This document shows positions 2,153 through 55,224 of a DNA stretch of 64,000 nt, piece after piece (position 1 is the first letter of the stretch; each line of letters starts with the position of its first letter). A program made the position numbers and the translations under genes. Source of the DNA: Vicingaceae bacterium. GTDB lineage: Bacteria > Bacteroidota > Bacteroidia > Flavobacteriales_E > Vicingaceae. The notes under the pieces were generated by a model. It was given only the letters and a program-made list of their open reading frames with translations. It searched no databases and was not told where the DNA came from. The stretch is from the NCBI GenBank assembly GCA_018402765.1, contig JAGYIE010000002.1, positions 372,001 through 436,000 of the forward strand, written 5' to 3'.

Positions 2153-4072
2153 TTATACTATGACTTTTTGGATTGAACCTCTAGTTAAATTAACAGAAAC
2201 TCTTCTATTTAATTTTCTACCTTGAACGGTAGAATTTGATGCAATTGGGTCGTCTTCTCCTCTGGATAATACATCATAATTAACTGTGACCCCTAGTTGT
2301 ATAAAATACTCTTTAACAGCGTTTGCTCTTCGTTCTGCAAGGATATTGTTGTAAGTCGAAGGCCCATAAGAATCTGTATGGCCTGTTATTGTTAAAACAC
2401 TCCCTTCCTCCAATTCCAATTGCTTAATGTAAGCCTCCATTTCTTTCTTACTATTTTCTGATATTCCATAAGAATCAAATCCAAAATAAACCATAAGTCC
2501 AATATCTTGAATTGTTTTTGTAGTATCATCATTAGCTGTTGCTCGTCTTTCATCGCCAATATCACTTTTAGATTCTACTTGTTGTATTTCATCTGTTTGT
2601 TTTGAAGCATCAGGCAATAAAGAATTATTTCCGCTAAGCACTTCATTAACAAATGCTTGATCTTCAATGAAGCGTTCTTGAACATTTGAGTCTGCAATTT
2701 CTGTTTTGATGGTGTTCTGTGAAATTTCTTCCATTGAAGCATCCGAGTAAGTAAGATCAGAAGAAGCAACCAAACTATCATCAATTACTGCATCTAAATT
2801 TGATTCTTCTGCTTCGTTTAAAGAGTTATCAGGAATTAATTCCTTTTCTATTAAGGCTATGTCATCTGATTTGATCAATGTATCATTCTGCTCTTTATTC
2901 GATATGGCTACTAGGTCATCTATAGAAAAATCTTCCATTCCTGCATCATCTCCATCCATTAGTGCAATTGTATAGACATCGGAATCGAGTTTTTTGTATT
3001 GAAATTTTCCCTTAGAATTGGCATAAATTGTGTCAACAACTGCGCCTAACCCATTTTTTACAAGTAACTTGATTGATTTTCTTGATGTTGTATCTAATTG
3101 GGCGATTGAAACTGTTCCCTCTAATAAGTTCGGTGTATTGGTAGCTATCAATTTAATGATGTTTCTATTTCGTTTAAATAACACCTGATAAATATCACTA
3201 AACTTCCCTTTTCGATTACTTGAAAATACTGCAGTATTTTCATCGATTATTGCATAAGACGCATCAAAACCTGTTGAATTGATTTTAGGCCCTAAATTTT
3301 CAGGAGTCGTCCAATCTGACCAACCTTCCCCAATACGCGCAGCTCTGTATATATCCGCAGACCCAAGTCCTCCATGTCCATCACTAGAAAAATACAATTC
3401 CTTCTTGTCTGCTGATAAAAAAGGTGTTGTCTCAATTCCATTGGTATTTATATTGGATCCAAGATCAACTAACTCTCCCCAACTGCCATCACTCTGTTTT
3501 AAACTAACAAAAATATCTTCATAATCTACCCCTTCTTTGGCAGTTGCTACAAAAAATTGTTCCTCGTCGGGTGTTACATAAAATGAATAGAACCCCAAGC
3601 CAATTTCAAACCCAGGTATATTAATGCTTATTGGACTGCCATATGACCCATCGTTGTCTGATTGCACGTATGCTAACCCTTTAGCTAATTTTTGTCTTGT
3701 GTCAAGAGAATTGAAAAAATAAATTCGCGATTCATCCTTATTAACTCCTACAATAACGTTATTCGCATTGTCGTTAGCAGAAACCTTCCAAGGAATTGGA
3801 GTTGTCCATTCTCCCTCCTCGTTTTGACTTAACCAGATTTCTTGCCCAGCCTTTGATGCCCTCTTTTTAGAGGCGCTCATTCGCATGAAGTACATTCTTT
3901 TTGAGGAAGAAATTACAGGATTGCATTCCTCTCCATTTGTATTGATCTCTTTTATCAGCTCAACAGATTCTATATCCTTTATCGCTTCTTGTCCTACAAT
4001 ATTGGTGCAATTAAAGATAACGCTAACAATAAGCAACAAGGAATATATATTTTTGTGTATTTTCATAATCAT
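2153..4072 (-). CDS. PD40 beta-propeller / OmpA-domain periplasmic protein (PorE-like), operon 1
   Basis: 639 residues. A signal peptide (about 1-28) is followed by PD40/WD40-like propeller repeats (about 30-310; repeated Y-F-S-S-x-G and F-x-T-P-D-E patterns). Next come a carboxypeptidase-regulatory-like beta domain (about 315-390) and an acidic Ser/Asp/Glu-rich linker (about 395-520). An OmpA peptidoglycan-binding domain closes the protein (about 525-632), with TGHTDSYGPSTYNNILAERR and GRKLNRRV. In T9SS bacteria such proteins bind peptidoglycan on the periplasmic face and associate with PorP-type outer-membrane proteins. This is the last gene of the operon giant protein, PorP/SprF, OmpA, with 30 bases to the PorP gene. 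A second Met two codons in (4066) could be the true start. It differs from its paralogue at 35999-38692 in having the acidic linker where that protein has five copies of a 94-residue unit. Confidence 0.9.
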   Translation of the reverse strand: MIMKIHKNIYSLLLIVSVIFNCTNIVGQEAIKDIESVELIKEINTNGEECNPVISSSKRMYFMRMSASKKRASKAGQEIWLSQNEEGEWTTPIPWKVSANDNANNVIVGVNKDESRIYFFNSLDTRQKLAKGLAYVQSDNDGSYGSPISINIPGFEIGLGFYSFYVTPDEEQFFVATAKEGVDYEDIFVSLKQSDGSWGELVDLGSNINTNGIETTPFLSADKKELYFSSDGHGGLGSADIYRAARIGEGWSDWTTPENLGPKINSTGFDASYAIIDENTAVFSSNRKGKFSDIYQVLFKRNRNIIKLIATNTPNLLEGTVSIAQLDTTSRKSIKLLVKNGLGAVVDTIYANSKGKFQYKKLDSDVYTIALMDGDDAGMEDFSIDDLVAISNKEQNDTLIKSDDIALIEKELIPDNSLNEAEESNLDAVIDDSLVASSDLTYSDASMEEISQNTIKTEIADSNVQERFIEDQAFVNEVLSGNNSLLPDASKQTDEIQQVESKSDIGDERRATANDDTTKTIQDIGLMVYFGFDSYGISENSKKEMEAYIKQLELEEGSVLTITGHTDSYGPSTYNNILAERRANAVKEYFIQLGVTVNYDVLSRGEDDPIASNSTVQGRKLNRRVSVNLTRGSIQKVIV

Positions 4073-4102: not shown

Positions 4103-5068
4103 TTAAAAAATAGAAACCCCAATAAATAATTCATTACTTCCACTTGAAACCGAACGTATTTCAGAAATATTGTAATCGTATGAATAGCCAATCTTGATCA
4201 ACCCATTAATGTGATAACTAAACAAAACTGAAACGGCATCTTGACTTCTATAAGCTAACCCTCCTGTTAGAATCTGCTTGTATGTTATTATGGCATTTAC
4301 ATCATAACTAAATGGGTTACTGCCAACCTTCTTGATTAAGAAACCTGGAGATAATCGAATTTCGTTGGTTACATCATAATTATATCCTGCCATAAAATAG
4401 TGATGAAAGTCAAAGCGCTCTGAACCAGTTGCCATTTTTACATTTGATAACCCAATTTGGCTTCTAATTAATTGTTGCGTCGAATAACCAACATAAAACT
4501 TATCAGAATAGACGTATACTCCTGAATTTACATTGAATTTATTTGATTGGTCACTAGAAGCATAAGCATCATAAATAGGATCCCCTGAATATAGCACATC
4601 TCCTTTGGTCTCATCAAAACTAAAGCTTTTTAATCCTGCACTTAATCCCATTGAGATAGATATTTCTCTATTTACAGGTAGATGTAATGCATATGAACCC
4701 GAAGCTTCTAATCGCTTAAAGGCTCCAAATTCACTAGAATTAACAACTGCTCCAACTGCATGTTTTACCATAGGCTTTCTCCTCGATGGATGACCCCAAG
4801 AATTACTCATTCTCACCGCAGATCTCATGTAGTTTTTTGGCCTGTTTAGTACCGTATGCCCACTAAAGTAGTATGTAGACGGAGCTACATCAATCCCTGT
4901 CCATTGTTTACGATAGCCCATTCGAATGTCAGCAAAGTTTTCATTTCCCGCAGCAGCAGGATTGATGATGTAATGATTCAAGTTATACATCGTATACTGC
5001 TGAACAGTCTGCGCTTTCATTACAACTGCCATTGAAAGTATAACTGCCATTATTAAAAATCTTTTCAT
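4103..5068 (-). CDS. PorP/SprF family type IX secretion system outer-membrane protein, operon 1
   Basis: 321 residues with a signal peptide (about 1-19). The family's N-terminal signature is visible as QQYTMYNLNHYIINPAAAG, followed by alternating beta-strands typical of an outer-membrane barrel and ending in a hydrophobic-aromatic final strand (ELFIGVSIF). PorP/SprF proteins are partners of individual T9SS substrates. SprF of Flavobacterium johnsoniae is needed to bring the type B substrate SprB to the surface. Here the gene starts 3 bases after the stop of the 10,249-residue type B protein, so it is probably that protein's cognate partner. The paralogue at 38697-39662 has exactly the same length and is very similar by eye, but diverged at many positions. 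Confidence 0.93.
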   Translation of the reverse strand: MKRFLIMAVILSMAVVMKAQTVQQYTMYNLNHYIINPAAAGNENFADIRMGYRKQWTGIDVAPSTYYFSGHTVLNRPKNYMRSAVRMSNSWGHPSRRKPMVKHAVGAVVNSSEFGAFKRLEASGSYALHLPVNREISISMGLSAGLKSFSFDETKGDVLYSGDPIYDAYASSDQSNKFNVNSGVYVYSDKFYVGYSTQQLIRSQIGLSNVKMATGSERFDFHHYFMAGYNYDVTNEIRLSPGFLIKKVGSNPFSYDVNAIITYKQILTGGLAYRSQDAVSVLFSYHINGLIKIGYSYDYNISEIRSVSSGSNELFIGVSIF

Positions 5069-5071
5069 CGC

Positions 5072-8000
5072 TTATCTTAATATTGATATAACCCCTGTTA
5101 CAACTTCTGATTTACCTAGCAATTCATATTTAATTAAATAATAATATGAACCAACCGATAATTCATTTCCTCCAAACTTCCCATCCCATGGAGTATATGA
5201 ACTTGAACGAAATACCTCGCTACCAAATCCATCATAAACCATTACATTATACGAATCTAATTCTTCTAAATTCTTAATCTCCCATGTATCATTTTGTCCA
5301 TCCGCGTTTGGTGTAAATGCACCCGGTATTATTAATCCTTCTAAAACAGTTACCTCGATGTAGCCATCTGCAAAACATCCATCCGAAGTTGTTACTCTAA
5401 CTGAATAACGTGTATCCTCGTCGGGACGAGCAAATGGTGTTTGAATTGAACTATTATCCAAACTAAACATTGGGAACCAACTGTACTGTATTACTGGAAT
5501 ATCGCTATCTACAAAGAGTCTTACGCCTTCTTCTTTGAAAATTGTTGTATCCGATAATGTTGTTAAAACTGGTACATCGGCTCCGATTAGTGTAACTGTA
5601 TCTGTGCTAGACCCGCATACCCCATTGCTAATGGTCCATACCAAGGTGTTTAATCCGTCGCCTAAGCCACTTACAAATGTTCGTGCATCGTTTACATTGC
5701 TCGGTACCCCTGTGCCGCCTATGAAACTCCATACCCCTGTTCCTGTTTGTGGAATATTTGCCTGCATGGTCGTACTTCGCTCGTCACACAAGGTTTGATC
5801 TGTTCCTGCAGCTGCAATTGTTGGCTCACTGTCAAAAGTAATGAAAACTGTATCACTGCTTGACGCGCACACGCCATTACTAATGGTCCATATAAACTGG
5901 TTTGCTCCTCGTTGCAATACTGCGGTTGTAAAAGGATTAGAAGGGTCTGTGATCACCACCCCTGTAGTAGTAGTAGTCCAAATTCCTGAGCCTATTACCG
6001 CTGAGTTTCCTGATAGTGTAACAGTATCTAAGCATACATTGAAGTCACTTCCTGCTGTTGCTGCTGTTGGTAATGCATCTCGTGTAACAGTGAAGCTACA
6101 TGAATCTACATTTCCATGGATATCAGTTACAACATGCGTTACTACTGTGCCACCTAAAGGGAAGGTTGACCCTGAAGCCAATCCACTTGTCCGAACTACA
6201 GAAGCGATTCCACAGTTGTCTGCGGTTGTTGGCAATGCATAAGTAAATACGCTATCACATACCGTAGTGTCTGCGATACAACTAATCGTTGGTAATTCTG
6301 TGTCATTTACTGTGATTGTAAAGCTAATGGTATCTGTATTCATCGCTGCATCATAAGCGATGTACGTAACAGTGGTAGTGCCTACTGTAAACACTGTTCC
6401 TAAATTATGGCTACTTACTAATGAATCCAATTGACAATTATCGGCAGCTGTTGGTAGTGTCCAACTCACTACTGCTCCACACTGCCCAGTATCATTGCTT
6501 ACAGCTATATTACTTGGAATATTTGCAATTATTGGAGCTACACTATCGATTACTGTAATTGTAAAACGACAAGTATCTGTGTTCATCGATTGATCATAAG
6601 CGATATAGGTAATTGTTGTTGTTCCTAACGCGAATGTGCTTCCTATCACGTGTGATCCGATTAATGAATCCAATTGTCCGTTATCGCTCGCTGTTGGAGC
6701 TATCCATGTTACTGCTGCATCACAGCTATTTAAGGCAGTAGATACCGTTATGTTTGTTGGGCAATTGGCTACCATTGGAGCTATCGTGTCTAGCACGGTT
6801 ACGACTTCTATAACACTGTCTGTGTTGTTGTTCACATCGATTGCGGTAAACCTTACATTGTTTGGTCCCAACTCGGTAACGTCAAACGTGGTTGAGTCTA
6901 TTCCAATGCTTGCTATCTGGCAATTGTCAGCTGTTCCATTGTCTAAGTCATTAGCTGTGATTGTTGCCAATCCGTTTGTTCCTAAATAAACTGTAATTGG
7001 CTGTGTAACAATAATTGGCTTAATGCTGTCAATAACGGTTACCAATACATTCACACTGTCTCGGTTTCCGCTTGCATCCGTTGCTTTAAAATTAACCGTG
7101 TTTACTCCTACTTCGCTACAATCAAAATTGCTGCTGTCAATAGTTATACTTGCTGCTTGGCAGTTGTCAGTTGTTCCGTTGTCTAAGTCAGTTGCGGTAA
7201 TCGTAGCTTGTCCATTCGCATCCAAATAAACAGTCAATGGCTGAGTCGCAATTATTGGCTTAATACTGTCAACTACTGTTACTGTTTCTGTTGTAATAGA
7301 TGTATTTCCATTTACATCAATCGCTGTAAAGACCACCGTGTTTGGTCCTACTTCGCTGCAATCAAAGTTTGAACTATCAATAGCGATACTTGCTACTTGA
7401 CAATTGTCAGATGTTCCGTTGTCTAAGTCAGTCGCGGTAATGGTAGCTTGTCCATTCGCATCCAAATAAACAGTTAATGGCTGTGTCGCAATAATTGGCT
7501 TAATACTATCAACTACTGTTACTGTTTCTGTTGTAATAGATGTGTTTCCATTTACATCGATTGCTGTAAAGACCACCATGTTTGGTCCTACTTCGCTGCA
7601 ATCAAAGTTTGAACTATCAATAGTTATACTTGCTACTTGACAATTGTCGGACGTTCCGTTGTCTAAGTCAGTGGCGGTAATGGTTGCTTGTCCATTCGCA
7701 TTCAAATAAACAGTCAATGGCTGTGTCGCAATAATTGGCTTAATACTGTCAACTACTGTTACTGTTTCAGTTGTAATAGATGTATTTCCATTTACATCAA
7801 TCGCTGTAAAGACCACCGTGTTTGGTCCTACTTCGCTGCAATCAAAGTTTGAACTATCAATAGCAATACTTGCTACTTGACAATTGTCGGACGTTCCGTT
7901 GTCTAAGTCAGTTGCGGTAATGGTTGCTTGTCCATTCGCATCCAAATAAACAGTCAATGGCTGTGTCGCAATAATTGGCTTAATACTGTCAACTACTGTT

Positions 8001-11000
8001 ATTGTTTCTGTTGTAATAGATGTATTTCCATTTACATCGATTGCTGTAAAGACCACCGTGTTTGGTCCTACTTCGCTGCAATCAAAGTTTGAACTATCAA
8101 TAGCAATACTTGCTACTTGACAATTGTCGGACGTTCCGTTGTCTAAGTCAGTCGCAGTAATGGTAGCTTGTCCATTTGCATCTAAGTAAACAGTCAATGG
8201 TTGTGTCGAAATAATTGGCTTGATGCTATCAATCACTGTTACTGTTTCTGTGCTTATTGATGTATTTCCATTTACATCAATTGCTGTAAAGACCACCGTG
8301 TTTGGTCCTACTTCGCTGCAATCAAAGTTTGAACTATCAATAGCAATACTTGCTATTTGGCAGTTGTCGGACGTTCCGTTGTCTAAGTCAGTTGCGGTAA
8401 TCGTAGCTTGTCCATTCGCATCCAAATAAACAGTCAATGGCTGTGTCGCAATTATTGGCTTAATACTGTCAACAACTGTTACTGTTTCTGTTGTATTAGA
8501 TGTATTTCCATTTACATCAATCGCTGTAAAGACCACCGAGTTTGATCCTACTTCGCTACAATCAAAATTGCTGCTGTCAATAGTTATACTTGCTACTTGA
8601 CAATTGTCGGACGTTCCGTTGTCTAAGTCAGTCGCAGTAATGGTAGCTTGTCCATTTGCATCTAAGTAAACGGTCAATGGTTGTGTCGCAATAATTGGCT
8701 TGATGCTGTCAATCACTGTTACTGTTTCTGTTGTAATAGATGTATTTCCATTTACATCAATTGCTGTAAAGACCACCGTGTTTGGTCCTACTTCGCTGCA
8801 ATCAAAAATTGAACTATCAATAGCGATACTTGCTACTTGACAATTGTCGGACGTTCCATTGTCCAAGTCACTTGCAGTAATGGTAGCTTGTCCATTTGCA
8901 TCTAAGTAAACAGTCAATGGTTGTGTCGAAATAATTGGCTTGATGCTGTCAACTACCGTTACCGATACATTCACACTATCTCGATTACCACTTGCATCAA
9001 CTGCTTTAAAGTTTATGGTATTTACTCCTACATCACTGCAGTCAAAATTGCTGCTATCAATAGCGATTCCTGCTAACTGACAATTATCAACAGTTCCATT
9101 GTCAACATCATTTGCTGTTATTGAAACCAAACCATTAACATCCAAGTAAATCGTTAGTGGTTGTGTTAATAATACAGGTGCAACTGTATCATTGTTCAAC
9201 ACATTTGCTGTATCTATTGCAATACAATTATTAGCATCTGTAATGGTAACACTGTACGTTCCTGCAAGTAAACTGTTTATTGCAGTTGATGTCGCCGAAT
9301 TGCTCCATATAATTGAATAAGGCAATGTACCTCCTGTAACTGAAACTTGCGCCGCTCCGTTATTAACACCTGCGCAACTAGCATTGTTAACAATACTTAC
9401 TGCTGCTGACAATTGAGCAGGTTCTGTCACTGTCGTATCATTTACTGCTGTTCCTCCATTTGCATCCGTTACGGTTACGGTGTATGTTCCCGCTGACAAA
9501 CCGGTAATGGTAGAGTCTGTCAAACTATTTGACCATAAGATGGTGTAAGGTTTTACTCCCCCTGTAACCGACACGCCTGCTCCTCCGTTCACTCCTCCAT
9601 TACACGTAACATTGGAATCTAATCGCATACTTGCGCGTATTGAGCCAGGCTCAAATACAGTAACTTGTTTGCTAGAGGTGCAGTTGTTACCATCTGTTAT
9701 CGTTACGGTATATACACCTGAAAACAGATTATTTATTGTAGCGGTAGTCGCAGCGGTATTCCATGCATACGTATAAGGAAATGTACCACCGGAACCACTT
9801 GCTGTTACACTTCCATCATTCGTTCCAAATATGCTTACGTTCTGATTAACTTGTATTGAAGAAACCAATACTGCAGGTTCAGTTATGGTTGTACTTGCTG
9901 TGGTTATACAGTTATTCGCATCGGTTACTGTTGCGGTATAAGTTCCTGCGGTTAAACCAGTGATATTTGCTGTGGTTGCTGAATTGCTCCACAAATAAGT
10001 ATACGCTGTTGTCCCGCCTGTCGCAGTTACTGTTGCTGATCCATCAGCACCTCCATTACAACTTACGTTTGTATTGCTTGAAGTTGCTGATAATGCTGTT
10101 GGCTCTGTTACGGTTGCACTTGATGTAGTTGTACATCCGTTTGCATCGGTTACTGTTGCGGTATACGTTCCTGCGGTTAAACCAGTAATGCTTGCTGTGG
10201 TTGCTGCGTTGCTCCACAAATAAGTATACACTGCTGTCCCGCCTGTCGCAGTTACTGTTGCTGATCCATCATTACCTCCATTACAGCTTACGTTTGTATT
10301 GCTTGAAGTTGCTGATAATGCCGTAGGCTCTGTTACGGTTGCACTTGATGTTGTCGTACATCCGTTGGCATCGGTTACTGTTGCGGTATAGGTTCCTGCT
10401 GCTAGCCCGTTTGCTGTGGCTGTTGTAGAAGCATTACTCCATAAGAACGTGTAAGGTGCTGTTCCACCTGAGCCGCTTGCTATAGCTGATCCATCACTTC
10501 CGCCATTACAGCTTACATTAGCGTTAACTACTGAACTCGCTGTTAATGCTGTAGGCTCAATAATCGTTGTGCTTGCTGTGATGGTACAGTTATTCACATC
10601 AGTAACCGTTACCGTATACGTTCCTGCTGATAGCCCATTTGCTGTGGGTGTTGTAGAAGCATTACTCCATAAGAACGTGTAAGGTGCTGTTCCACCGGTT
10701 GCAGTTGCAGTGGCTGATCCATCATTGCCTCCATTACAGCTTACAGGTGTATTTAATGCACTTGCTGCTAATACTGCAGGTTCAGTTATGGTTGTACTTG
10801 CTGTGGTTATACAGTTATTCGCATCGGTTACTGTTGCGGTATACGTTCCTGCGGTTAAACCAGTGATATTTGCTGTGGTTGCTGAATTGCTCCACAAATA
10901 AGTATACGCTGTTGTCCCGCCTGTCGCAGTTACTGTTGCTGATCCATCAGCACCTCCATTACAACTTACGTTTGTATTGCTTGAAGTTGCTGATAATGCC

Positions 11001-39669: not shown

Positions 39670-42600
39670 TTATCTTAATATGGAGATGGCTCCTGATTTA
39701 TATGTATTGTTTGATCCCAACTTTAACTCAATTACATAGTAATATGATCCTACGGATAGCATGTTTCCATTGTATTTGCCGTCCCAATTTTCATAACTAG
39801 TCGTTCTAAGAACTTCACTTCCATATCCGTCGTAAACTACCACTGAATGACGTTCATATTGATCAAGGTTTTTAATTTCCCATGTATCATTTGCTCCATC
39901 ACCGTTTGGTGTAAATGCTGATGGTATTACTAAATCCTTTATTACCGTTAACGTAACATCAGCTTGTGCCTCACATCCTAAGTCAGTCGTAACCTTAACT
40001 GTGTAAGTAGTGGTTTCTGTTGGACGAGCAAATGGACTTTGTATTGCCGCATTATCTAAACTAAACACCGGATCCCATCGGTAATCGACTACAGGAATAT
40101 CTGTGCTCACACTTAATTGATATCCATTGTCTTCAAATATGGTAGTATCTTGACCTGCATCCACTAGTGGTACATCGGCTCCGATTAGTGTAACTGTATC
40201 TGTGCTAGACCCGCATACCCCATTGCTAATGGTCCATACCAAGGTGTTTAATCCGTCGCCTAAGCCACTTACAAATGTTCGTGCATCGTTTACATTGCTC
40301 GGTACCCCTGTGCCGCCTATGAAACTCCATACCCCTGTTCCTGTTTGTGGAATATTTGCCTGCATGGTCGTACTTCGCTCGTCACACAAGGTTTGATCTG
40401 TTCCTGCAGCTGCAATTGTTGGCTCACTGTCAAAAGTAATGAAAACTGTATCACTGCTTGACGCGCACACGCCATTACTAATGGTCCATATAAACTGGTT
40501 TGCTCCTCGTTGCAATACTGCGGTTGTAAAAGGATTAGAAGGGTCTGTGATCACCACCCCTGTAGTAGTAGTAGTCCAAATTCCTGAGCCTATTACCGCT
40601 GAGTTTCCTGATAGTGTAACAGTATCTAAGCATACATTGAAGTCACTTCCTGCTGTTGCTGCTGTTGGTAATGCATCTCGTGTAACAGTGAAGCTACATG
40701 AATCTACATTTCCATGGATATCAGTTACAACATGCGTTACTACTGTGCCACCTAAAGGGAAGGTTGACCCTGAAGCCAATCCACTTGTCCGAACTACAGA
40801 AGCGATTCCACAGTTGTCTGCGGTTGTTGGCAATGCATAAGTAAATACGCTATCACATACCGTAGTGTCTGCGATACAACTAATCGTTGGTAATTCTGTG
40901 TCATTTACTGTGATTGTAAAGCTAATGGTATCTGTATTCATCGCTGCATCATAAGCGATGTACGTAACAGTGGTAGTGCCTACTGTAAACACTGTTCCTA
41001 AATTATGGCTACTTACTAATGAATCCAATTGACAATTATCGGCAGCTGTTGGTAGTGTCCAACTCACTACTGCTCCACACTGCCCAGTATCATTGCTTAC
41101 AGCTATATTACTTGGAATATTTGCAATTATTGGAGCTACACTATCGATTACTGTAATTGTAAAACGACAAGTATCTGTGTTCATCGATTGATCATAAGCG
41201 ATATAGGTAATTGTTGTTGTTCCTAACGCGAATGTGCTTCCTATCACGTGTGATCCGATTAATGAATCCAATTGTCCGTTATCGCTCGCTGTTGGAGCTA
41301 TCCATGTTACTGCTGCATCACAGCTATTTAAGGCAGTAGATACCGTTATGTTTGTTGGGCAATTGGCTACCATTGGAGCTATCGTGTCTAGCACGGTTAC
41401 GACTTCTATAACACTGTCTGTGTTGTTGTTCACATCGATTGCGGTAAACCTTACATTGTTTGGTCCCAACTCGGTAACGTCAAACGTGGTTGAGTCTATT
41501 CCAATGCTTGCTATCTGGCAATTGTCAGCTGTTCCATTGTCTAAGTCATTAGCTGTGATTGTTGCCAATCCGTTTGTTCCTAAATAAACTGTAATTGGCT
41601 GTGTAACAATAATTGGCTTAATGCTGTCAATAACGATTACCAATACATTCACACTGTCTCGGTTTCCGCTTGCATCCGTTGCTTTAAAATTAACCGTGTT
41701 TACTCCTACTTCGCTACAATCAAAATTGCTGCTGTCAATAGCAATCGTAAATAAAGTTCCATTATCTGTTGTTCCATTGTCTAAATCTGCTACGGTTATT
41801 GTAGCTTGACCGTTTGCATCTAAATAAATAGTTCGAGGCTGAGTAGCTAATATTGGACGTGTAGTATCTAAAACAGTTACTGCCACGACCACGCTGTCCA
41901 CATTATTATTCACATCAACAGCGGTAAACCATACATTATTTAGCCCTAGTTCTGTATAATCAAACGTTGTGCTATCAATAGCAATAGCTGCTAATTGACA
42001 GTTGTCGGCTGTTCCATTATCTAAGTCAGTTGCGGTTATTGTAGCCAATCCGTTTATTCCTAAGTAAACCGTAATTGGTTGAGTGCTAATTAGTGGTTTA
42101 AGGCTATCTATTACTGTAACCAATACATTCACACTGTCTCGGTTTCCGCTTGCATCTATTGCTTTGAAGTTGATTGTGTTTACACCTACTTCGCTGCAAT
42201 CAAAACTACCGCTATCAATACTAATAGATACAACTGTACTGTTATCCGTAGTTCCATTATCTAAATCTGCTGCAGTAATAGTAGCTTGTCCATTCACATC
42301 CAAATAAACAGTAAGTGGCTGTACTGCCATAACCGGAACAGTCGTGTCTAATACAGATACGACAACTATCATACTATCCGCATTATTGTTCACATCTACT
42401 GCGGTAAACCAAACGTTATTTGGTCCCAATTCTGTGTGATCAAACGTTGTGCTGTCAATAGCGATACTTGCTACTTGACAATTGTCGGACGTTCCGTTGT
42501 CTAAGTCAGTTGCGGTAATCGTAGCTTGTCCATTCGCATCCAAATAAACAGTCAATGGCTGTGTCGCAATTATTGGCTTAATACTGTCAACTACTGTTAC

Positions 42601-48600: not shown

Positions 48601-51600
48601 TCCAGAATAGTATAATCTACTGTTGACTGTCATCAAAGCAGAACGTTGACCATTAGATACGGTACCGTATTCGAAAATAGATCCATTAGAGGTCTGCGTA
48701 GTTTTCACCCAAGCTTCTAGTGTTCTTGAGTTATTACCGGCGGGAAAGCCTGCATCGGAGCCTGAAATAAAATCATTCGACCCGTCCAAAAATACCGAGC
48801 CATTATTATCAAAACCTGCTCCATAAATTTTTGCAGAATCTCCTTCACAAATAATTTGATTAGAGCTCTTGAATATTTGATTAATGATACTTATTTCTAT
48901 ACTATCACTTGCAGTGCATCCATTTGCATCTGTAACTGTAACGGAATACGATCCTGAAGTGGTAATTGACGTTGTTTGTGTTGTTGCGCTATTGCTCCAT
49001 AAGTAACTAGAAAAACCTGCACCGGCATCAACCAATACAGTATCTGCCCCGCAAGAGAAAACAGTGTCTTGAGCAAATGCAAAAGAAATAGGTGCAGGTG
49101 CGGTTATCGTTGCACTTGCTGTTGTTGTACATCCATTCGCATCAGTAACCGTTACCGTATATGTTCCTGAAGATAATCCTGTAATGCTAGCTGTTGTTGC
49201 TGAATTACTCCAAACAAAGGAATATGGAGATGTGCCACCAGTTGCGCTTACTGTTGCTGATCCATCAGTTCCGCCGTTACATGTTATGTTTGTATTGCTT
49301 GAAGTTGCTGATAATGCCGTAGGCTCTGTTACGGTTGCACTTGCTGTTGTTGTACATCCATTCGCATCAGTAACCGTTACCGTATATGTTCCTGAAGATA
49401 ATCCTGTAATGCTAGCTGTTGTTGCTGAATTACTCCAAACAAAGGAATATGGGGATGTGCTACCAGTTGCGCTTACTGTTGCTGATCCATCAGTTCCACC
49501 ATTGCAACTTATTGCTGAAGAAACTGTAACTGATGCTACTACGGCCGTCGGTTCTGTAATGGATATACTTGACGTATTGGTACATGAATTCGCATCAGTA
49601 ACTGTAACAGTGTACGTTCCTGCGGTTAACCCTATCAAATTTGCTGAAGTGTCGGTGTTGTTCCATAGGTAAGTATAAGGCGCTGTTCCGCCTGAGGCTG
49701 TTAGTGATATCGCTCCATCCGAATCCCCATTGCATTCTAATGCAGTAGAAGAGGCATTCGAATTGCCAACCAAAATGTACAGCTTTCGCGTAGTGTATGT
49801 ATTGGCGTTTTGCTGAAACGTCCAATCAGGATGTGTTCCCGAATTGTTCCCTATTCCTAAGTCTCCTGTGGCATTTCGTGGAAAATTATTGTAAGCAAAT
49901 AATGTTTGACTAGCACCATAATTATGTACTTGGAAAGAGCCATAACAATTTGATGCACCAGCATAGCTATCATCAAAGTCATAAACGGAACTGCTTCCTC
50001 CTAATCCTGAATTCGCAGTTGTATTATAACATTGCGACCACATTTCTAAATTACCTGTAGCAATATTGTTCCCTGTTGTAATGCCAGACTTATTGGTGTA
50101 GACATTCATATTGCTCACAACCCTATCCCAAATAACATTATTGGTTTGACCCCTAGGCAATCCCAAAGATTTAAGATTTCCACTTGCGAAATCATCCATG
50201 GATACCCATATCCAATCATTATCTAACTGCATATAATAGGCTACCCGAGTGTGATTGGTATTTAATGTATTCGCATTATCAATTGCATAATTGATCGCAT
50301 TATTTGCATAGTGCGCATTTACCGGGATATCGAGTTCATATACTATTCCAAAACTAGCAGCCTCCGCCACTTTTGATACTATTGCAGATGGAGCAGCCGT
50401 AAGCCCTGCAGGAACAGCAGGAGCAAATGAAACCACTATGGGTGATGAGATATTCACCACTACATTATCAGTAGCAGTGCATCCATTTGCATCTGTTACT
50501 GTTACCGTGTATGTTCCTGAAGTGCTAACCGAAGTAGTTTGTGTAGTTGCACTATTAGACCACGCATAACTAGCCCAACCTGGACCTGCATCTGCAGTTA
50601 CAGAACTAGCTCCGCAAGAGGAAATGGTATCTTGAGGAAAGGCAAAAGATGGACTGCTCGAATTAACAACTACCGAATCTACACAAGAGCCTATCCCATC
50701 TGATATTGTTACATAATATGTAGATGAAGAAGACGGGTTTGACGAAATTGAAGGAGTAGAAGCACCGGTACTCCACAGGTATGAATAATTTTGAATCTGA
50801 GATGGCTGCTGAGCAAACAATGCTCCATTCGTATTATATGCAGAATTTGTTACCGAGTTTGTCCCTAAGGATCCACTTCCTTCATTAAATGAAAAACTAC
50901 CAACTAAACCTGAAGCTGTTTTAATGGTTTTGTTCATATTTATAGCAATCTCACTGGCAGTTCTTGCTGTAGTCCAGACTCTAATTTCGTCTAAAGACCC
51001 GTCCATAAAGCCAGGAGTGTTCAGAACACCATCTTGTCGATATGCTCCAATCAAAAATTCATTAGGAATCAATACATTTCCAACATTACCCGTTGCTTCT
51101 AAAGCACCATCCAAATAAAGCTTAGTGCTAGTAGAACCGTCTTTTACTACGGCTACGTGGTGCCATTGACCGTCGTTTACATTGGTTGTGCTTGTAACTT
51201 CTCTAAAAACACTTGGCGAACCTGGTGTGTGAATTAAGAAATTCAGCTTGTTTTGGTATATCCTAAACTGCATATTATTAACCCCAGCAAGAGTATTTGG
51301 GTTTCCTCCAGCTGAACTGCTGAGGATGTTTGGATATTTCCCATTAGCGATGGTTCCATCAGTTGTTTTTACCCAAGCTTCAATTGTAATTACAGATTGA
51401 TTTCCTCCATGAAGATTTGTAGGAATTTGTATATGATTATTTATTCCGTCAAAGTCGAGTGACGTTCCAGACTCTTTGGTTACTAAAGAAATAGAATTGC
51501 TGTTACAAATAGTAGTATCTGAATTAATAATTGATGCAGCAATCACGCTTGCAACCACATTATCAGTTGCAGAACAACCATTTGCATCAGTTACAGTTAC

Positions 51601-54600
51601 TGTATAAGTTCCTGAAGTAGTAATTGAAGTTGTTTGTGTAGTTGCACTATTAGACCACGCATAACTTGCCCAACCTGCTCCTGCGTCTGCAGTAACCGAA
51701 CTAGCTCCACAAGAAAGAATAGTATCTTGTGCAAAAGAAAAAGATGGATTGCTCACCGTTACCGTAACTGAGTCAACCGAAGAGCCGTTAGCATTACTTA
51801 CTGTTACATAGTAAGTAGTTGTTGCTGATGGGCTAACTTGTATTGATTGGGTAGTATCCCCCGTAGACCAATTGTAGCTGTAGTTTGCGGTTCTAGGCAA
51901 ATTGGGCTTTACAGCTGATCGCACCCAAATTTGATGCACCGTACTGCGGCTAAAATTACCCGGGTAATCATCTATTTCCCACCTACTACCTTGGCCTTTT
52001 ACACCCCAGTGATAAGCACCGTTAAGAAAAAAAGGGAAATTCGTCATTGCTCCATCGCCTTCATTTGTATAGTAACTGGCAGAGGATGCCGGCAAATTAG
52101 CCGTATGTCCAGATAACAATGTGTATTCAGCGCTATTGTTTAACCCAGAAATCGATCCGGTTCCGGTTTTAAAATAACTGAGCATGCTGCTCGAATTAGA
52201 TTTAAAGTGCATTACCCTGCTGTGGCCAGAGGTAATGCCATAAAACCTAACCTCTTCAGGATTTAATTTGGTGAACAATGCATTTCCAATATGCCCCCAA
52301 CTTGTAGGACTAGAAGATTCGTCACCTCCTAAAACTTCTGAGTTAAGAAGGGGCGTTTTATCCGTAAGAATATTCAAAGCAGGATTTGTTCCACCTAAAT
52401 GCACATAATTTAATGCCATTACCCAACCGCCTCCATCTTCATCAGAATCTACCTGAATCTTAAAGGTATCTGTACTGTTCGCATACCAGTATACCCCAGA
52501 AGGAATGTTGTAAACCTCATTTAAATTTGTAAATGGGTTTGTGCTTGTATAACCCAAGTTTGAAGCATTGGACCCTAACGTTACTGAAGATCCTGAACAG
52601 ATAGTGGTATCAGGAATGGTTATGGAAGCAGAAGGCGCTGTATTTGGATCTACATACTTTAAAATAATCCGTCCAAAACCGCCGTCTCCGCCCATCGTTC
52701 TTTGATTGACTTCATTAGCTGTTCCTCCCGAGCAAGCGGCACCAGCGCCACCACCACCGCCAAATCCATCTATACCGTCAAACCCTTTCGTAAATCCCGT
52801 AATAGAGCTCACGCCGTCCTCGCCTAGTCGATAATTGGCGCCGGCGCCTCCTCCACCTTGGCCGCCAGTTGCGCCAAGGGTTGGGATTCCATTGGTCACG
52901 TTAATGCCAGTTCCTCCTGCTCCACCTCCACCGTAAGTAACTGCTCCGCAAGAGAAATTTGATGTAGTTCCGTTATTTCCATTATTACCAATAGCTGCAG
53001 AAGTAGCGGTTAATGCACATGCATTTAGGCCCGCACCTCCTGTGCCACCTGCATAACCAACTCCACCAAAGCCACCAGTTCCACCAGCTCCGCCGAATGA
53101 ATTAGCCAATGTTCCGCCCATTTCACCACCATTGGCTTTTACTAGTTGGTTGCCATTGCTTATAATAACAGAATAATCACCAGAGATTGTTGGATAATAT
53201 CCACCCCAGGCATATCCTCTTCCACCTTTACCTGGTATAACTTGTAGCGAGCTTATGTTAGCTGTATTCAACACGCCTGTGCGAATTTCACCACCGCCGC
53301 CGCCACCGCCGCCGTCTGCCATGCCACCTGCACCGCCGCCAACAACAAAGTATTCTACTTGACTCACCCCATTTGGTACGTCAAACTGTGTACACATGAT
53401 AGCGAAGTTGTCAATACCCCAAGATTCATCGGTATTTACTTGATTAAGTGTTGAAGATATTTTTAGGGTTAAGTCATTTAACCCTGATGGTACATCTATA
53501 TACACCCGAATAATTTGATCATACCAATTCGCATTTGAGGGAGCACCAGTGTATGGAATATTTACTGCTGCATTATTAATTGCCCAAAGAGAATAATTAT
53601 ACCCGTTTAACGAACCATTTTGTATAAACCCGGTATTGTTTCCATTAATTGCAAAATCTACTAATAGCGTAGAACCATTACCAACATAAATTTGCATTTT
53701 TTCATTATCCCAAGAATCTAGGCGATAAAAGTCAAACGCTATTCGCTGCGATTTTTTATTTAGCTGAAATGTTTTTTGTATATAATCTCCAACGGCAAAA
53801 CGACCAAGAAAAAAGTTACCCCCTAATAGTGGCCCTCCATTGTAGCGAGCTGCAGGTGTAGTTGTTCCATTTTGTGTCCAACCATCAGCGCCTGATTCAA
53901 ATTTTTCTGTAACAGAGTAATATTCATACACCCTTATTGAATCTGCATTTTCTGCGCAAGTGGCATAGCTTTGAAAACAATTTGTTGGAGTAGGTGAAAC
54001 TGTAAAAAATGCAGGGGCACTATTTAAAGGGCTTTTAAATACATTTACTTTAAATGATCTATCTCCTAAGCTTGGTGAACCGCTAGTGTTTTTATAATAA
54101 ATTGCATCTATTAGTGCTTCAGCCTCTGAATTTGATATTGTTCCGTTTGATGATTTTTTTATCACAAACAAAGTGTTACCTGCAAGCGAAGAAACAGTTA
54201 AGCTGTAAGTTACACCTCCAAAAGTGAATGTTTGCGAAGATGGAGATGATAAGTTTATTGAAGTAGCTGGTGATGTGTTTGAAATTTCTATTTTTTCATT
54301 TGCCCCATCTAATATATTAGATGTACTATATTCAATTAGAAGTTCTTCTATATCTCCAACAACATTTGTTGCCCCAGTTGTAAATGAGTTGGGGCTTGAA
54401 TTAGCAAAGCTAACAGAATGATCAAGCCCATTTCCCGCCGTTGAATTAAGGTCAATTTCAGGCGCACTTACAGCTTGTGCGGAAGAAAAAGTTGGACCAA
54501 CAGAAAAGTCTAAATAAAAATAGGATAAGTTTCCATCATCTGACCCTACCTTAACAGTAAAACTAGAGAGTTGGTTGTACGTAACTCTAACCCTTGTTTC

Positions 54601-55224
54601 ATCAGCGTAATCATTATTATTATTATTTCCATTATTGGATTGAAATAAGGTTAAATTAGATGAAGGATTATAGCTAGGTACGATTCGGGTTGGGTTACCC
54701 AATTCATAAGTCAAAAATCCACCAAATTCATTATACTGTTTAGATCCACTATACCCATCTATATCATATGAGTTGATCTTAATATTTTGAAGTGTTACTT
54801 TGGTTCCAGTTTTTGTAGAATTATTATACGTCCCGGATAAAATAAATTGGAATTTAAATTTAGCATATGCATCAGCGCCTGTGCTAAAATTAAATCTAGG
54901 TGCGAATTGCTCAGAAGGAATATTAGTGCTACCTCCTGCATAATCATAGTTTGAAAATGAACTTACTCTATATAATTCTTCTGTGTACACAATAGCATCA
55001 AAAGACTGACACCCTATTGTCAGTACATTTTCATAAACTACAATATCGTTTGCTGATCTACCATCACCAACTTTATTGGAGACAGTGACACCAGAACCGC
55101 CAAATTTAATTTGTTGAAATGAAGAGTTATAGATCAAACCTGCGGGTTGAGGACATTGGGCAATCGAATAATTTGTTAGCAACAATAACAAAATGGACAT
55201 AAATCGAGTAAACAAATGCTTCAT
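39670..55224 (-). CDS. Giant T9SS type B surface protein (5,184 residues) with Gly-rich, fibrinogen-like, LamG and SprB-type domains
   Basis: N to C: signal peptide (1-23, ending S-I-A-Q); an unrecognised N-terminal region (about 24-420); a jelly-roll-like domain (about 440-608; F-E-S-G-A-D-G-W, W-G-I-D-N-F-A-I-M-C); a glycine-rich domain (about 618-851); a fibrinogen-like domain (about 908-1108); LamG 1 (about 1250-1478); a ~225-residue unrecognised insert (about 1598-1823); LamG 2 (about 2130-2342); about 18 SprB-type repeats in the main array (about 2465-3822; three more precede LamG 2); seven 80-residue repeats, the first split by LamG 3; three HYR-like and several PKD-like domains; and a type B C-terminal domain (AFTPNGDGANDTWEI). 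Cell-surface adhesin or gliding filament by inference. It heads operon 2 and is paralogous to giant 1 in its C-terminal half, but has no FG-GAP modules. Confidence 0.9.
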   Translation of the reverse strand: MKHLFTRFMSILLLLLTNYSIAQCPQPAGLIYNSSFQQIKFGGSGVTVSNKVGDGRSANDIVVYENVLTIGCQSFDAIVYTEELYRVSSFSNYDYAGGSTNIPSEQFAPRFNFSTGADAYAKFKFQFILSGTYNNSTKTGTKVTLQNIKINSYDIDGYSGSKQYNEFGGFLTYELGNPTRIVPSYNPSSNLTLFQSNNGNNNNNDYADETRVRVTYNQLSSFTVKVGSDDGNLSYFYLDFSVGPTFSSAQAVSAPEIDLNSTAGNGLDHSVSFANSSPNSFTTGATNVVGDIEELLIEYSTSNILDGANEKIEISNTSPATSINLSSPSSQTFTFGGVTYSLTVSSLAGNTLFVIKKSSNGTISNSEAEALIDAIYYKNTSGSPSLGDRSFKVNVFKSPLNSAPAFFTVSPTPTNCFQSYATCAENADSIRVYEYYSVTEKFESGADGWTQNGTTTPAARYNGGPLLGGNFFLGRFAVGDYIQKTFQLNKKSQRIAFDFYRLDSWDNEKMQIYVGNGSTLLVDFAINGNNTGFIQNGSLNGYNYSLWAINNAAVNIPYTGAPSNANWYDQIIRVYIDVPSGLNDLTLKISSTLNQVNTDESWGIDNFAIMCTQFDVPNGVSQVEYFVVGGGAGGMADGGGGGGGGEIRTGVLNTANISSLQVIPGKGGRGYAWGGYYPTISGDYSVIISNGNQLVKANGGEMGGTLANSFGGAGGTGGFGGVGYAGGTGGAGLNACALTATSAAIGNNGNNGTTSNFSCGAVTYGGGGAGGTGINVTNGIPTLGATGGQGGGGAGANYRLGEDGVSSITGFTKGFDGIDGFGGGGGAGAACSGGTANEVNQRTMGGDGGFGRIILKYVDPNTAPSASITIPDTTICSGSSVTLGSNASNLGYTSTNPFTNLNEVYNIPSGVYWYANSTDTFKIQVDSDEDGGGWVMALNYVHLGGTNPALNILTDKTPLLNSEVLGGDESSSPTSWGHIGNALFTKLNPEEVRFYGITSGHSRVMHFKSNSSSMLSYFKTGTGSISGLNNSAEYTLLSGHTANLPASSASYYTNEGDGAMTNFPFFLNGAYHWGVKGQGSRWEIDDYPGNFSRSTVHQIWVRSAVKPNLPRTANYSYNWSTGDTTQSIQVSPSATTTYYVTVSNANGSSVDSVTVTVSNPSFSFAQDTILSCGASSVTADAGAGWASYAWSNSATTQTTSITTSGTYTVTVTDANGCSATDNVVASVIAASIINSDTTICNSNSISLVTKESGTSLDFDGINNHIQIPTNLHGGNQSVITIEAWVKTTDGTIANGKYPNILSSSAGGNPNTLAGVNNMQFRIYQNKLNFLIHTPGSPSVFREVTSTTNVNDGQWHHVAVVKDGSTSTKLYLDGALEATGNVGNVLIPNEFLIGAYRQDGVLNTPGFMDGSLDEIRVWTTARTASEIAINMNKTIKTASGLVGSFSFNEGSGSLGTNSVTNSAYNTNGALFAQQPSQIQNYSYLWSTGASTPSISSNPSSSSTYYVTISDGIGSCVDSVVVNSSSPSFAFPQDTISSCGASSVTADAGPGWASYAWSNSATTQTTSVSTSGTYTVTVTDANGCTATDNVVVNISSPIVVSFAPAVPAGLTAAPSAIVSKVAEAASFGIVYELDIPVNAHYANNAINYAIDNANTLNTNHTRVAYYMQLDNDWIWVSMDDFASGNLKSLGLPRGQTNNVIWDRVVSNMNVYTNKSGITTGNNIATGNLEMWSQCYNTTANSGLGGSSSVYDFDDSYAGASNCYGSFQVHNYGASQTLFAYNNFPRNATGDLGIGNNSGTHPDWTFQQNANTYTTRKLYILVGNSNASSTALECNGDSDGAISLTASGGTAPYTYLWNNTDTSANLIGLTAGTYTVTVTDANSCTNTSSISITEPTAVVASVTVSSAISCNGGTDGSATVSATGSTSPYSFVWSNSATTASITGLSSGTYTVTVTDANGCTTTASATVTEPTALSATSSNTNITCNGGTDGSATVSATGGTSPYSFVWSNSATTASITGLSSGTYTVTVTDANGCTTTASATITAPAPISFAFAQDTVFSCGADTVLVDAGAGFSSYLWSNSATTQTTSITTSGSYSVTVTDANGCTASDSIEISIINQIFKSSNQIICEGDSAKIYGAGFDNNGSVFLDGSNDFISGSDAGFPAGNNSRTLEAWVKTTQTSNGSIFEYGTVSNGQRSALMTVNSRLYYSGQNNDLSTSVQLNDNKWHHVAASFDGSQLKLYVDGIMVASKNTTFNTVLSGYTIGKRGNSNSGFLNGNVGEVRLWNYARSASEIAANRYRSLIGTDSGLVFYAPLNNINGTQVPSLVSSTNDGQANNGVSISLLSPLPQYTYNWSTGDTTSTINVSPTANTTYKVTISDGIGSCVDSIAVTVNSPTFAFAQDTLTACSGTSVLVDAGASWSSYAWSNSATTQTTSVTTSGIYSVTITDNNGCTASDDVVVNITSPVAASTAVNANVSCNGGSDGSATVNATGGTAPYRFNWSTGDTTGVISGVKARTHFVTITDANSCTVVSSVVITEPSVLTANSQVDSTVTCNGLSDAGITVNVLGGTLPYTYLWSTSATTVSITGVSAGVYTVTVTDATNACAVSDSVIITEPTVLSASTVVSSIVSCNGLSDGSATASGSGGTAPYTFLWSNASTTATANGLAAGTYTVTVTDVNSCTNTSSISVAEPAVLVASAAVSSSIDCSGDFDGQVTASATGGTSPYIYSWNTGETDAQETGLGAGTYYVTITDSNGCTDSASVTLTEPSALVASTVVNSAVSCNGGSDGSATVSGSGGTLPYTFLWSNASITATASGLAAGTYTVTVTDANSCTTTASTTITEPTVLTASLVVNSNVSCNGGSDGSATASGSGGTAPYAYLWSNSATTANITGVIAGTYTVTVTDANSCTNTSNISIVEPTVLVASAAVSSSIDCWGDFDGQVTASATGGTSPYIYSWNTGQTVAQETGLGAGTYFVTITDSNGCTDSASVTLTEPTVLVASAAVSSSIDCWGDIDGQATASAIGGTSPYFYSWSTGQTVAQETGLGAGTYYVTITDSNGCTDSASVTLTEPSALVASTVVNTAVSCNGGSDGSATASAIGGVLPYTFLWSNASTTASASGLAAGTYTVTVTDANSCTNTSSVIIIEPSVLTASTAVNSTVSCNGLSDGSATASGAGGTAPYTYLWSTSATTANITGVVAGTYTVTVTDANSCTNTSSVIITEPIVLSASTVVNSTVSCNGLSDGSATASGSGGTSPYTFLWSNASITATANGLAAGTYTVTVTDANGCTTTSSATVTEPAVLAASALNTPVSCNGGNDGSATATANGGTAPYTFLWSNASTTATANGLSAGTYTVTVTDVNNCTTTASTAIIEPTALSATSSNTNVSCNGGADGTATVTATGGTTAYTYLWSNAATTASITGLTAGTYTATVTDANGCTTTSSATVTEPSVLTASTAVNSTVSCNGLSDGSATASGSGGTAPYTFLWSNASTTATANGLAAGTYTVTVTDANGCTTTSSTTVTEPTALAATSSNTNVSCNGGADGTATVTATGGTAAYTYLWSNAATTASITGLTAGTYTATVTDANGCTSTSSATVTEPAVLVSSIQVNQNVSIFGTNDGSVTASGSGGTLPYTYAWNTTATTATINNLFSGVYTVTITDGNNCTSISQTTVNEPGSIRLSMRLDSNVTCNGGVNGGAGVSVTGGVKPYTFLWSNSLTDSTITGLSAGAYTVTVTDANGGTAVNDTTVTEPAQLSAAASIVNNASCAGVNDGAAQVSVTGGTLPYSIIWSNSATSTAINSLLAGSYSVTITDGNTCTATSVVNILNNDTVPPSMQLFNNVTVYLDSFGSATLSVNDVDSASFDNCGIQSITLSDTLFGCVLPQATYNGVTALNFDGVDDYVSIPNGLTQDSNHTISVWVKSTASNSPFLFGWGGSGVNNYGGLSLFGPRLRYYSGNGTPGVLSVSGNAIVADGSWHHVAITRDGSGSVLIYVDGQLDASGLISKYVNTVSNVSLGSIFANGNYQGHYNGSLDDFNYWSRVLNASEIQELICNNSKGSGLKVSYDFSDGIGSSISTNNGLGTLNGTLVNMDINTSWVSFGTAVVTNCTAQNATTITIVDASGNRDSANVSVTVVDSIKPIISTQPLTVYLDANGQATITATDLDNGTSDNCQVASIAIDSSNFDCSEVGPNTVVFTAIDVNGNTSITTETVTVVDSIKPIIATQPLTVYLDANGQATITATDLDNGTSDNCQVASIAIDSTTFDHTELGPNNVWFTAVDVNNNADSMIVVVSVLDTTVPVMAVQPLTVYLDVNGQATITAADLDNGTTDNSTVVSISIDSGSFDCSEVGVNTINFKAIDASGNRDSVNVLVTVIDSLKPLISTQPITVYLGINGLATITATDLDNGTADNCQLAAIAIDSTTFDYTELGLNNVWFTAVDVNNNVDSVVVAVTVLDTTRPILATQPRTIYLDANGQATITVADLDNGTTDNGTLFTIAIDSSNFDCSEVGVNTVNFKATDASGNRDSVNVLVIVIDSIKPIIVTQPITVYLGTNGLATITANDLDNGTADNCQIASIGIDSTTFDVTELGPNNVRFTAIDVNNNTDSVIEVVTVLDTIAPMVANCPTNITVSTALNSCDAAVTWIAPTASDNGQLDSLIGSHVIGSTFALGTTTITYIAYDQSMNTDTCRFTITVIDSVAPIIANIPSNIAVSNDTGQCGAVVSWTLPTAADNCQLDSLVSSHNLGTVFTVGTTTVTYIAYDAAMNTDTISFTITVNDTELPTISCIADTTVCDSVFTYALPTTADNCGIASVVRTSGLASGSTFPLGGTVVTHVVTDIHGNVDSCSFTVTRDALPTAATAGSDFNVCLDTVTLSGNSAVIGSGIWTTTTTGVVITDPSNPFTTAVLQRGANQFIWTISNGVCASSSDTVFITFDSEPTIAAAGTDQTLCDERSTTMQANIPQTGTGVWSFIGGTGVPSNVNDARTFVSGLGDGLNTLVWTISNGVCGSSTDTVTLIGADVPLVDAGQDTTIFEDNGYQLSVSTDIPVVDYRWDPVFSLDNAAIQSPFARPTETTTYTVKVTTDLGCEAQADVTLTVIKDLVIPSAFTPNGDGANDTWEIKNLDQYERHSVVVYDGYGSEVLRTTSYENWDGKYNGNMLSVGSYYYVIELKLGSNNTYKSGAISILR
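39673..39945 (-). other. Type B T9SS C-terminal sorting domain of giant protein 2
   Basis: Last ~90 residues: IPSAFTPNGDGANDTWEI, V-V-Y-D-G-Y-G-S-E-V, W-D-G-K and SVGSYYYVI, ending GAISILR. Same class as in giant 1 but diverged, which fits each giant having its own PorP/SprF partner. Confidence 0.9.
40169..41739 (-). repeat. 1.57-kb tract shared almost base for base with giant 1 (5571-7141)
   Basis: Partner of the tract at 5571-7141, offset 34,598 bases. It encodes the last 80-residue repeat, the three HYR-like domains and two PKD-like domains. The match ends abruptly just after 41739, inside an 80-residue repeat, and just before 40169. Confidence 0.9.
41385..43740 (-). repeat. Seven 80-residue Ig/HYR-like repeats in giant 2, first one split by a LamG domain
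   Basis: Same unit as in giant 1 (T-V-Y-L-D-x-N-G, D-L-D-N-G-T, F-D-C-S-E-V-G). Copies here are more varied than in giant 1, with alternate endings D-V-N-N-N-x-D-S and D-A-S-G-N-R-D-S. DNA at about 42,480-42,830 again closely resembles copies in giant 1. Confidence 0.85.
42905..43565 (-). other. LamG domain 3 of giant 2, inserted inside an 80-residue repeat
   Basis: The host repeat runs T-V-Y-L-D-S-F-G-S-A-T-L to L-F-G-C, is interrupted by a LamG domain (ALNFDGVDDYVSIPNG, W-H-H-V-A-I-T-R-D, LIYVDGQLD, L-D-D-F-N-Y-W-S-R), and resumes with VDASGNRDSANV and V-V-D-S-I-K. The whole remains in one frame. Confidence 0.85.
43760..47850 (-). repeat. About 18 SprB-type repeats in giant 2
   Basis: Units of about 75 residues: S-C-N-G-G/L-S-D-G-S-A-T-A, G-G-T-x-P-Y-T-F-L-W-S-N, A-G-T-Y-T-V-T-V-T-D-A-N, ending EPT/A. 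Several carry a variant start (S-I-D-C-W-G-D-F-D-G-Q). This array is more diverse than that of giant 1. Its C-terminal three units resemble the same units in giant 1. Confidence 0.87.
48200..48835 (-). other. LamG domain 2 of giant 2, nested in a PKD-like unit
   Basis: SVFLDGSNDFISG, T-L-E-A-W-V-K-T, K-W-H-H-V-A-A-S-F, KLYVDGIMV and V-G-E-V-R-L-W-N-Y-A-R. Flanked by IICEGDSAKIYG before it and YTYNWSTGDTTSTINVSP after it, the same host-unit halves as around the other nested LamG domains. Confidence 0.85.
49755..50430 (-). other. About 225-residue unrecognised domain in giant 2
   Basis: Starts near P-A-V-P-A-G-L and runs to KLYILVGNSN, just before an SprB unit with E-C-N-G-D-S-D-G. It contains aromatic-rich segments such as VAYYMQLDNDWIWVSMDDF and Y-D-F-D-D-S-Y-A-G. 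It looks like a globular, possibly carbohydrate-binding, domain, but I do not recognise the family. Confidence 0.65.
50790..51475 (-). other. LamG domain 1 of giant 2, nested in a PKD-like unit
   Basis: TSLDFDGINNHIQIP, I-T-I-E-A-W-V-K-T, W-H-H-V-A-V-V-K-D, LYLDGALEA and L-D-E-I-R-V-W-T-T-A-R. Preceded by TTICNSNSISLVT and followed by YSYLWSTGASTPSISSNP. Confidence 0.85.
51900..52500 (-). other. Fibrinogen-like domain of giant 2, nested in a PKD-like unit
   Basis: Contains the fibrinogen-type start W-Y-A-N with F-K-I-Q-V-D-S-D-E-D-G-G-G-W-V-M, a central H-I-G-N-A-L-F segment and G-D-G-A-M-T-N-F-P-F. It ends R-W-E-I-D-D-Y with H-Q-I-W-V-R. Host-unit halves TTICSGSSVTLG and YSYNWSTGDTTQSIQVSP flank it, as for the nested LamG domains. 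Confidence 0.7.
52670..53370 (-). other. Glycine-rich domain of giant 2
   Basis: About residues 618-851. Gly-dense sequence with a run of eight Gly near its start and many G-G-A-G-G, G-G-T-G-G and GFGGGGG blocks, ending R-I-I-L-K-Y. This layout occurs in secreted bacterial glycine-rich domains. The DNA is locally GC-rich (GCC and CCG runs near 53,290-53,340) compared with the surrounding AT-rich sequence, because of the Gly codons. Confidence 0.8.

Follow-up and report, generated by a model that had tools for sequence, protein, structure and literature searches.

Tandem PorP and PorE-like adhesin operons in a marine Flavobacteriales bacterium: a co-inherited address-and-anchor module, an apparently recombining stalk and likely static anchoring to the wall

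Recent papers have asked how a cell with a dozen giant adhesins allots each of them to the moving gliding track or to a fixed site on the wall. The same question is posed by a 64-kb window (the whole stretch of DNA that was analysed) from a marine Flavobacteriales bacterium, in which two three-gene operons, A and B, lie in tandem on the minus strand. Each runs from a giant with a type B C-terminal domain (CTD), through a PorP/SprF protein, to a PD40-OmpA (PorE-like) protein. Where would these two giants be held, and how did the two operons come to lie side by side? The three-gene operon type is already known. In P. gingivalis, PorE, PorP and PG1035 form a complex, and the proposal has been made that PorP by itself serves the mobile adhesins, while those that do not move depend on PorP together with PorE (PMC9143113). 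F. johnsoniae has five operons that combine a PorE homologue, a type B substrate and a shuttle; its shuttles are mostly cognate, and Fjoh_3952, which comes from an operon with a PorE homologue, appears static (PMC12618676). The C-tail of SprF carries a CxC motif that is disulfide-bonded to Cys343 of GldK, holding SprF on the gliding track (PMC12635249).

The host genome is 3.1 Mb and 99.8% complete, and the window lies within a 994-kb contig. In operon A, giant A (5072..35821; 10,249 aa) is followed by PorP A (4103..5068; 321 aa) and PorE-like A (2153..4072; 639 aa, composed of a PD40 propeller, a linker and an OmpA domain); in operon B, giant B (39670..55224; 5,184 aa) is followed by PorP B (38697..39662; 321 aa, 69% identical to PorP A) and PorE-like B (35999..38692; 897 aa), all on the minus strand. 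The open reading frame of PorE-like B opens with a GTG at 38737, while the ATG at 38692 begins the signal peptide, and counted from this ATG the gaps are 7 and 4 nt in operon B, against 3 and 30 nt in operon A. A sequence-only reading of this DNA had described two operons of shared gene order with these gaps, PorPs of identical length and giants with matching C-terminal architecture, and the coordinates and profiles bear out all three points. Both PorPs match PorP_SprF over their full length (E 4e-63 and 7e-67), exceeding the cut-offs of PF11751 and TIGR03519, with no sequence match for PorP in the PDB. The PD40 and OmpA domains of both PorE-like proteins are above the Pfam cut-offs. Both giants end in the type B CTD TIGR04131 (E 1e-15 and 2e-18), contain CHU_C in their C-termini and start with a signal peptide as judged by eye, the features of type B substrates, and HYR likewise occurs in both C-termini; in both operons the three genes are adjacent on one strand, the arrangement of PorE-PorP-type B operons. 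Scans for promoters and terminators between and before the operons returned nothing above shuffled sequences.

Among the nearest counterparts are F. johnsoniae operons such as Fjoh_3952-3951-3950, in which substrate, shuttle and PorE-like genes follow one another as they do here, with a cognate shuttle and proposed static wall anchoring. Here, however, the PorE-like proteins lack TPR and the PorPs lack a C-tail (a comparison in which the Fjoh proteins were not aligned residue by residue), the cargo is 5-10 thousand aa long, and there are two tandem operons with stalk conversion. With PorE-PorP-PG1035 of P. gingivalis the operons share a PorP barrel that carries a type B CTD protein and a propeller-CRD-OmpA link to peptidoglycan; the differences are one linker with about five CRD copies and a far larger cargo. 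P. gingivalis PorE is a lipoprotein with TPR, whereas neither PorE-like protein has TPR or, by eye, a clear lipobox. The SprB-SprF pair is also a giant with SprB repeats and a type B CTD followed by a PorP/SprF shuttle, yet F. johnsoniae SprF has its GldK-linked CxC tail and no PorE neighbour, and both the cysteines and the tail are missing from PorP A and PorP B.

Both proteins at the end of the operons combine a PD40 propeller with an OmpA peptidoglycan-binding domain, as PorE does, and their scores against NF052230 (PorE), 110 and 128 bits, lie below its 600-bit cut-off. In both, the peptidoglycan site of the OmpA domain keeps its Asp and its Arg. The full model of PorE-like B is weak (pLDDT 60), and the model of its OmpA domain has structural matches in OprF, in DAP-bound OmpA and in the C-terminal domain of PorE (6top). 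Searches with Pfam and a TPR profile found no TPR domain in either protein, and the propeller starts directly after the signal peptide. The linker of PorE-like B contains a perfect 282-bp tandem repeat of 4.7 copies (36407..37735, minus strand), which the earlier reading had overlooked. PorE-like B has about five exact CRD/transthyretin-like repeats of 94 aa, and its orthologue in L029, a locus of the same-genus genome G002, has two diverged ones. The repeats are likely to reflect a recent, frame-keeping expansion of the periplasmic linker, and the repeat tract is possibly variable in length.

We then looked at the gene order in 26 genomes sampled from the family and the class. At least 21 of the 26 carry one or more same-strand CTD-PorP-PorE-like triads, a lower bound taken from the PorP matches listed, so the gene order is not due to chance; a search for this order in Bacteroidota had been suggested by the sequence-only reading as a check. 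In L029 the gene after the B-type PorE opens like an A-type giant (81.8% over 1,971 nt). This B-then-A order means that the tandem arose before the host and G002 separated, and operon A appears to have been already beside B in the common ancestor with this same-genus relative. Genome G001 has only a distant copy. Other arrangements were also seen. In G013:C34 (L027 and L031), two A/B-like operons lie about 34 kb apart in opposite orientation, with their giants running off both contig ends, and at L030:2713-6754 and L072:5938-11001 PorE-like genes are doubled in tandem behind one PorP.

The three genes of a triad share their history. Across 33 complete triads from related genomes, pairwise distances correlate at 0.86 (PorP-CTD), 0.83 (PorP-PorE) and 0.84 (CTD-PorE), with none of 2000 permutations as high, although these correlations partly reflect the species history common to all three genes. 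Operon A, moreover, departs from the species pattern identically in PorP, CTD and PorE, nesting in all three trees among copies from genus g12 (the CTD tree taken alone is weakly supported). Grouping of the g12 copies without A is rejected by the AU test (p 0.004 for PorP, 0.028 for CTD and 1e-5 for PorE). CTD, PorP and PorE-like protein thus form one co-inherited address-and-anchor module, and the co-evolution test proposed earlier comes out in agreement between the trees by distances, nesting and AU tests alike.

The matching gene order, the adjacency of the operons and PorPs of equal length at 69% identity are what a simple local tandem duplication in the host lineage, with heads diverging afterwards, would leave, and the earlier reading had held that duplication let the cargo heads diverge. 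This origin is rejected by the AU tests in all three gene trees under the models used, as a clade of operons A and B of the window with L029 fails at p 2e-4 for PorP, 6e-79 for PorE and 0.004 for CTD. The level of identity speaks against it as well. With the core PorP beside gldJ as the vertical baseline between genomes, the host is 57-59% identical to genus g12, 89% to G002 and 78% to G001, whereas PorP A is 76-84% identical to the g12 copies and 82-84% to the two nearest. Given also that the giant heads show no similarity, a local duplication is very unlikely. Operon B groups with L029 at an identity in line with vertical descent (PorP 91%), and the address module of giant B is 92% identical in DNA to that of L029; between operons A and B identity is 69% for PorP, 59% for CTD and 37% for PorE. 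Within g12, the A-type genes conflict with the core PorP tree, G049 grouping with G013/G050 and not with G048, which indicates that the module moves. Nesting, identity and conserved synteny together show that operon A, as one complete unit, either came from a different genus of the family or was traded with it, and a horizontal arrival is most likely. A g12 donor and the host genus as recipient would be the simplest reading of the nesting, since the reverse needs several transfers.

The two giants have unrelated heads. Giant A consists of ten head units of about 550 aa, LamG-like regions, SprB repeats, HYR repeats, an Ig-like domain and the type B CTD, while giant B has a Gly-rich region, a weak fibrinogen-like match and LamG ahead of the same series of SprB repeats, HYR repeats, Ig-like domain and CTD. 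Of the heads named in the sequence-only reading, FG-GAP propellers in A and Gly-rich and LamG regions in B hold, and the fibrinogen domain reduces to a sub-threshold GGGWT match (E 4e-4). The ten tandem units of giant A (18788..35674, minus strand; period 1650/1653 bp, with exact repeats of up to 3,071 bp) each combine an Ig-like domain with a seven-bladed, integrin-alpha-like FG-GAP propeller. One unit was modelled as a seven-blade FG-GAP beta-propeller with pLDDT mostly 72-98 over residues 150-530, and the best Foldseek matches in the PDB are integrin alpha headpieces (alphaM, alpha6 and alphaX). The unit has the same predicted fold as the integrin alpha beta-propeller, but at about 17% identity, in a bacterial protein and with ten units in a row, this is a fold match only and does not imply functional equivalence. 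Because residues 1-5946 of giant A have no detectable similarity to giant B, the heads appear to have been swapped or fused rather than to have diverged.

In the stalk, a tract of giant A (5570..7037) is identical at 1,468/1,468 positions to one of giant B (40168..41635), both on the minus strand, an identity that had escaped the earlier reading; there are only these two full copies in the genome. The tract ends 166 aa before the C-termini of the giants, between one Ig-like domain and the next. What follows is the address module, the last Ig-like domain plus the type B CTD, of 166 codons including the stop (5072..5569 in giant A and 39670..40167 in giant B, minus strand), a length within the 150-235 aa of measured type B signals (PMC12618676). 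On this CTD side identity drops at once to about 60% in DNA, with PorP at about 70% and OmpA lower between A and B, and on the far side it is 54-73% for about 700 bp before a patch of 97-98% over 200 bp.

Assemblies fail at perfect long repeats, and the identity is known from the assembly alone, so the 1,468-bp tract and the perfect internal repeats could in principle be assembly artefacts. However, both copies of the tract lie within one 994-kb contig with differing flanks, the further repeat patches that the loci share reach 97-99% identity and not 100%, and 3-kb repeats are resolved in the assembly, which makes an artefact very unlikely. The tract indicates instead a recent copying of stalk sequence from one giant to the other, which went as far as the address module and stopped there. 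Exchange has occurred more than once, since L029, of B type, and L027, of A type, agree at 78% in their stalks and at 62% in their CTD modules. A conversion direction from B to A, suggested by the 79.7% likeness of L029 to the tract, was dropped because of this 78% agreement between the two stalks. A clean tract edge is what protection of a module read by the shuttle would give, though one edge does not prove selection. In this way natural recombination sets apart, within these adhesins, a stalk that can be exchanged and an address module that is spared.

The edge also bears on whether the two operons might build one composite surface structure, with both giants displayed together and PorP and PorE partners interchangeable. 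The operon order is kept in a relative, the PorPs are 69% identical, and CTD crosstalk is known at 68% identity (PMC12618676). Yet the CTDs of A and B are only 59% and the PorEs 37% identical, each triad keeps its own history, and the recombination tract ends before the address module. We regard a composite structure as rather unlikely.

Are the giants then mobile or static? Mature PorP A and PorP B contain no cysteine and no C-tail. The C-tail cysteine of SprF-type mobile shuttles being absent, the SprF-type disulfide with GldK is unavailable to them, and static wall anchoring of both giants is likely for this reason, although most operonic PorPs that have no PorE neighbour lack tail cysteines as well (counts below). 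Stalks built of SprB repeats, and a host genome that encodes GldJ, would suit SprB-like mobile gliding adhesins whose PorPs ride the GldJ/GldK track while the OmpA protein only steadies the envelope. This reading is opposed by the missing cysteine and periplasmic tail, by the separate occurrence in the host genome of Cys-tailed PorPs beside gldJ and gldK, and by F. johnsoniae, whose mobile substrates are not encoded alongside PorE homologues (PMC12618676); we consider mobility unlikely.

Taken as a whole, the evidence is best explained by each operon encoding one statically wall-anchored giant adhesin, with a co-inherited address and anchor, an exchangeable stalk and head, and a horizontal origin of A, an explanation we hold to be probable. 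By analogy with the known systems, the giant would be exported by the type IX system, and its last ~166 aa (Ig-like domain and type B CTD) would be read by its own PorP/SprF barrel, which would take the giant from the translocon and keep it on the surface. The PorE-like protein would meet the periplasmic side of the barrel, probably via its propeller, and its OmpA domain would hold the barrel to peptidoglycan, making the giants immobile adhesins for surface display and adhesion. The earlier logic of cargo, outer-membrane holder and wall anchor agrees with the literature, the conserved gene order, the kept Asp and Arg, and the PorP-OmpA and PorP-SPOR fusions described below.

Looking at shuttle classes among the PorP matches listed, none of 40 PorPs with a PorE-like gene downstream lies beside gldJ or gldK, whereas 45 Cys-tailed PorPs without CTD or PorE neighbours adjoin gldJ (25) or gldK (20). 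Tail cysteines occur in 2/39 PorE-linked PorPs, 6/35 CTD-linked ones without PorE and 58/61 others in the same matches. The raw Fisher p for tail cysteine against PorE linkage is 9e-12; on the PorP tree the two traits change only six and three times, with no support from independent pairs. Operonic PorPs without a PorE neighbour also mostly lack the cysteine (29/35). For both reasons the idea that tail cysteine and PorE linkage are correlated independently of the phylogeny was dropped, and the association is kept as a clade-level pattern.

The anchors themselves differ in TPR, as scored with the TPR profile. PorEs with TPR (E 1e-26 or better) are found in 28 of 43 PorE-linked pairs, and all 28 partner PorPs have a C-tail, 26 with PR[YF]F-like endings and 2 with Cys. 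The other 15 PorEs lack TPR, and 13 of their partner PorPs are tail-less or have a different short tail (exceptions L036 and L160). The operons of the window fall into this subclass without TPR and without tail, mainly one clade, to which a model of PorE docking on PorP by way of TPR cannot apply. This pairing of tail and anchor may be a novel lead, one that is not yet phylogenetically independent.

The 26 genomes also contain PorPs fused to an anchor of their own. PorP-OmpA fusions were found at L046:5173-6675 and L086:4879-6408, and PorP-SPOR fusions over the cut-off at L101:4479-5882, L129:4948-6459 and L146:2830-4404 (those in L095 and L135 are borderline); one PorP barrel is fused to TPR repeats (L162:4089-6023). 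All of these fusions have a type B CTD gene upstream. In the literature searched, no paper was found that links PorP or SprF with a SPOR domain. The fusions hint independently that such PorP barrels may be tied to the wall. The PorPs of these genomes fall into classes with a Cys tail beside gldJ/gldK, an SPRYF tail beside a TPR-bearing PorE, no tail beside a TPR-less PorE, and OmpA/SPOR fusions. Read jointly, the PorP/SprF C-tail may be a destination label read in the periplasm: Cys would direct to the GldK/GldJ track, SPR(Y/F)F would be bound by the TPR domain in wall anchors of the PorE type, and barrels without a tail would go with TPR-less anchors docking otherwise or with their own OmpA/SPOR. 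Address, shuttle and anchor would move between genomes as a module while stalks and heads recombine freely. We put this forward tentatively, with somewhat less than even confidence. The comparison would yield a sequence-level rule for where shuttles take their cargo, one testable by tail swaps.

Three further observations concern the surroundings of such genes. A large class of PorPs, those of L033, L041, L055, L063, L068, L076, L081, L087 and L103, have a giant type B substrate upstream, no PorE neighbour, no tail cysteine and short acidic or charged tails. Two tandem AraC-type regulators, 41% identical to each other (486-2093 of the window and G000:C9:370840-372429), adjoin operon A; they were not found in the same-genus genomes searched and are possible regulators of the locus. 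Finally, a type A T9SS substrate with Por_Secre_tail and a cleaved-adhesin domain is encoded near the operons, at 62176-63963.
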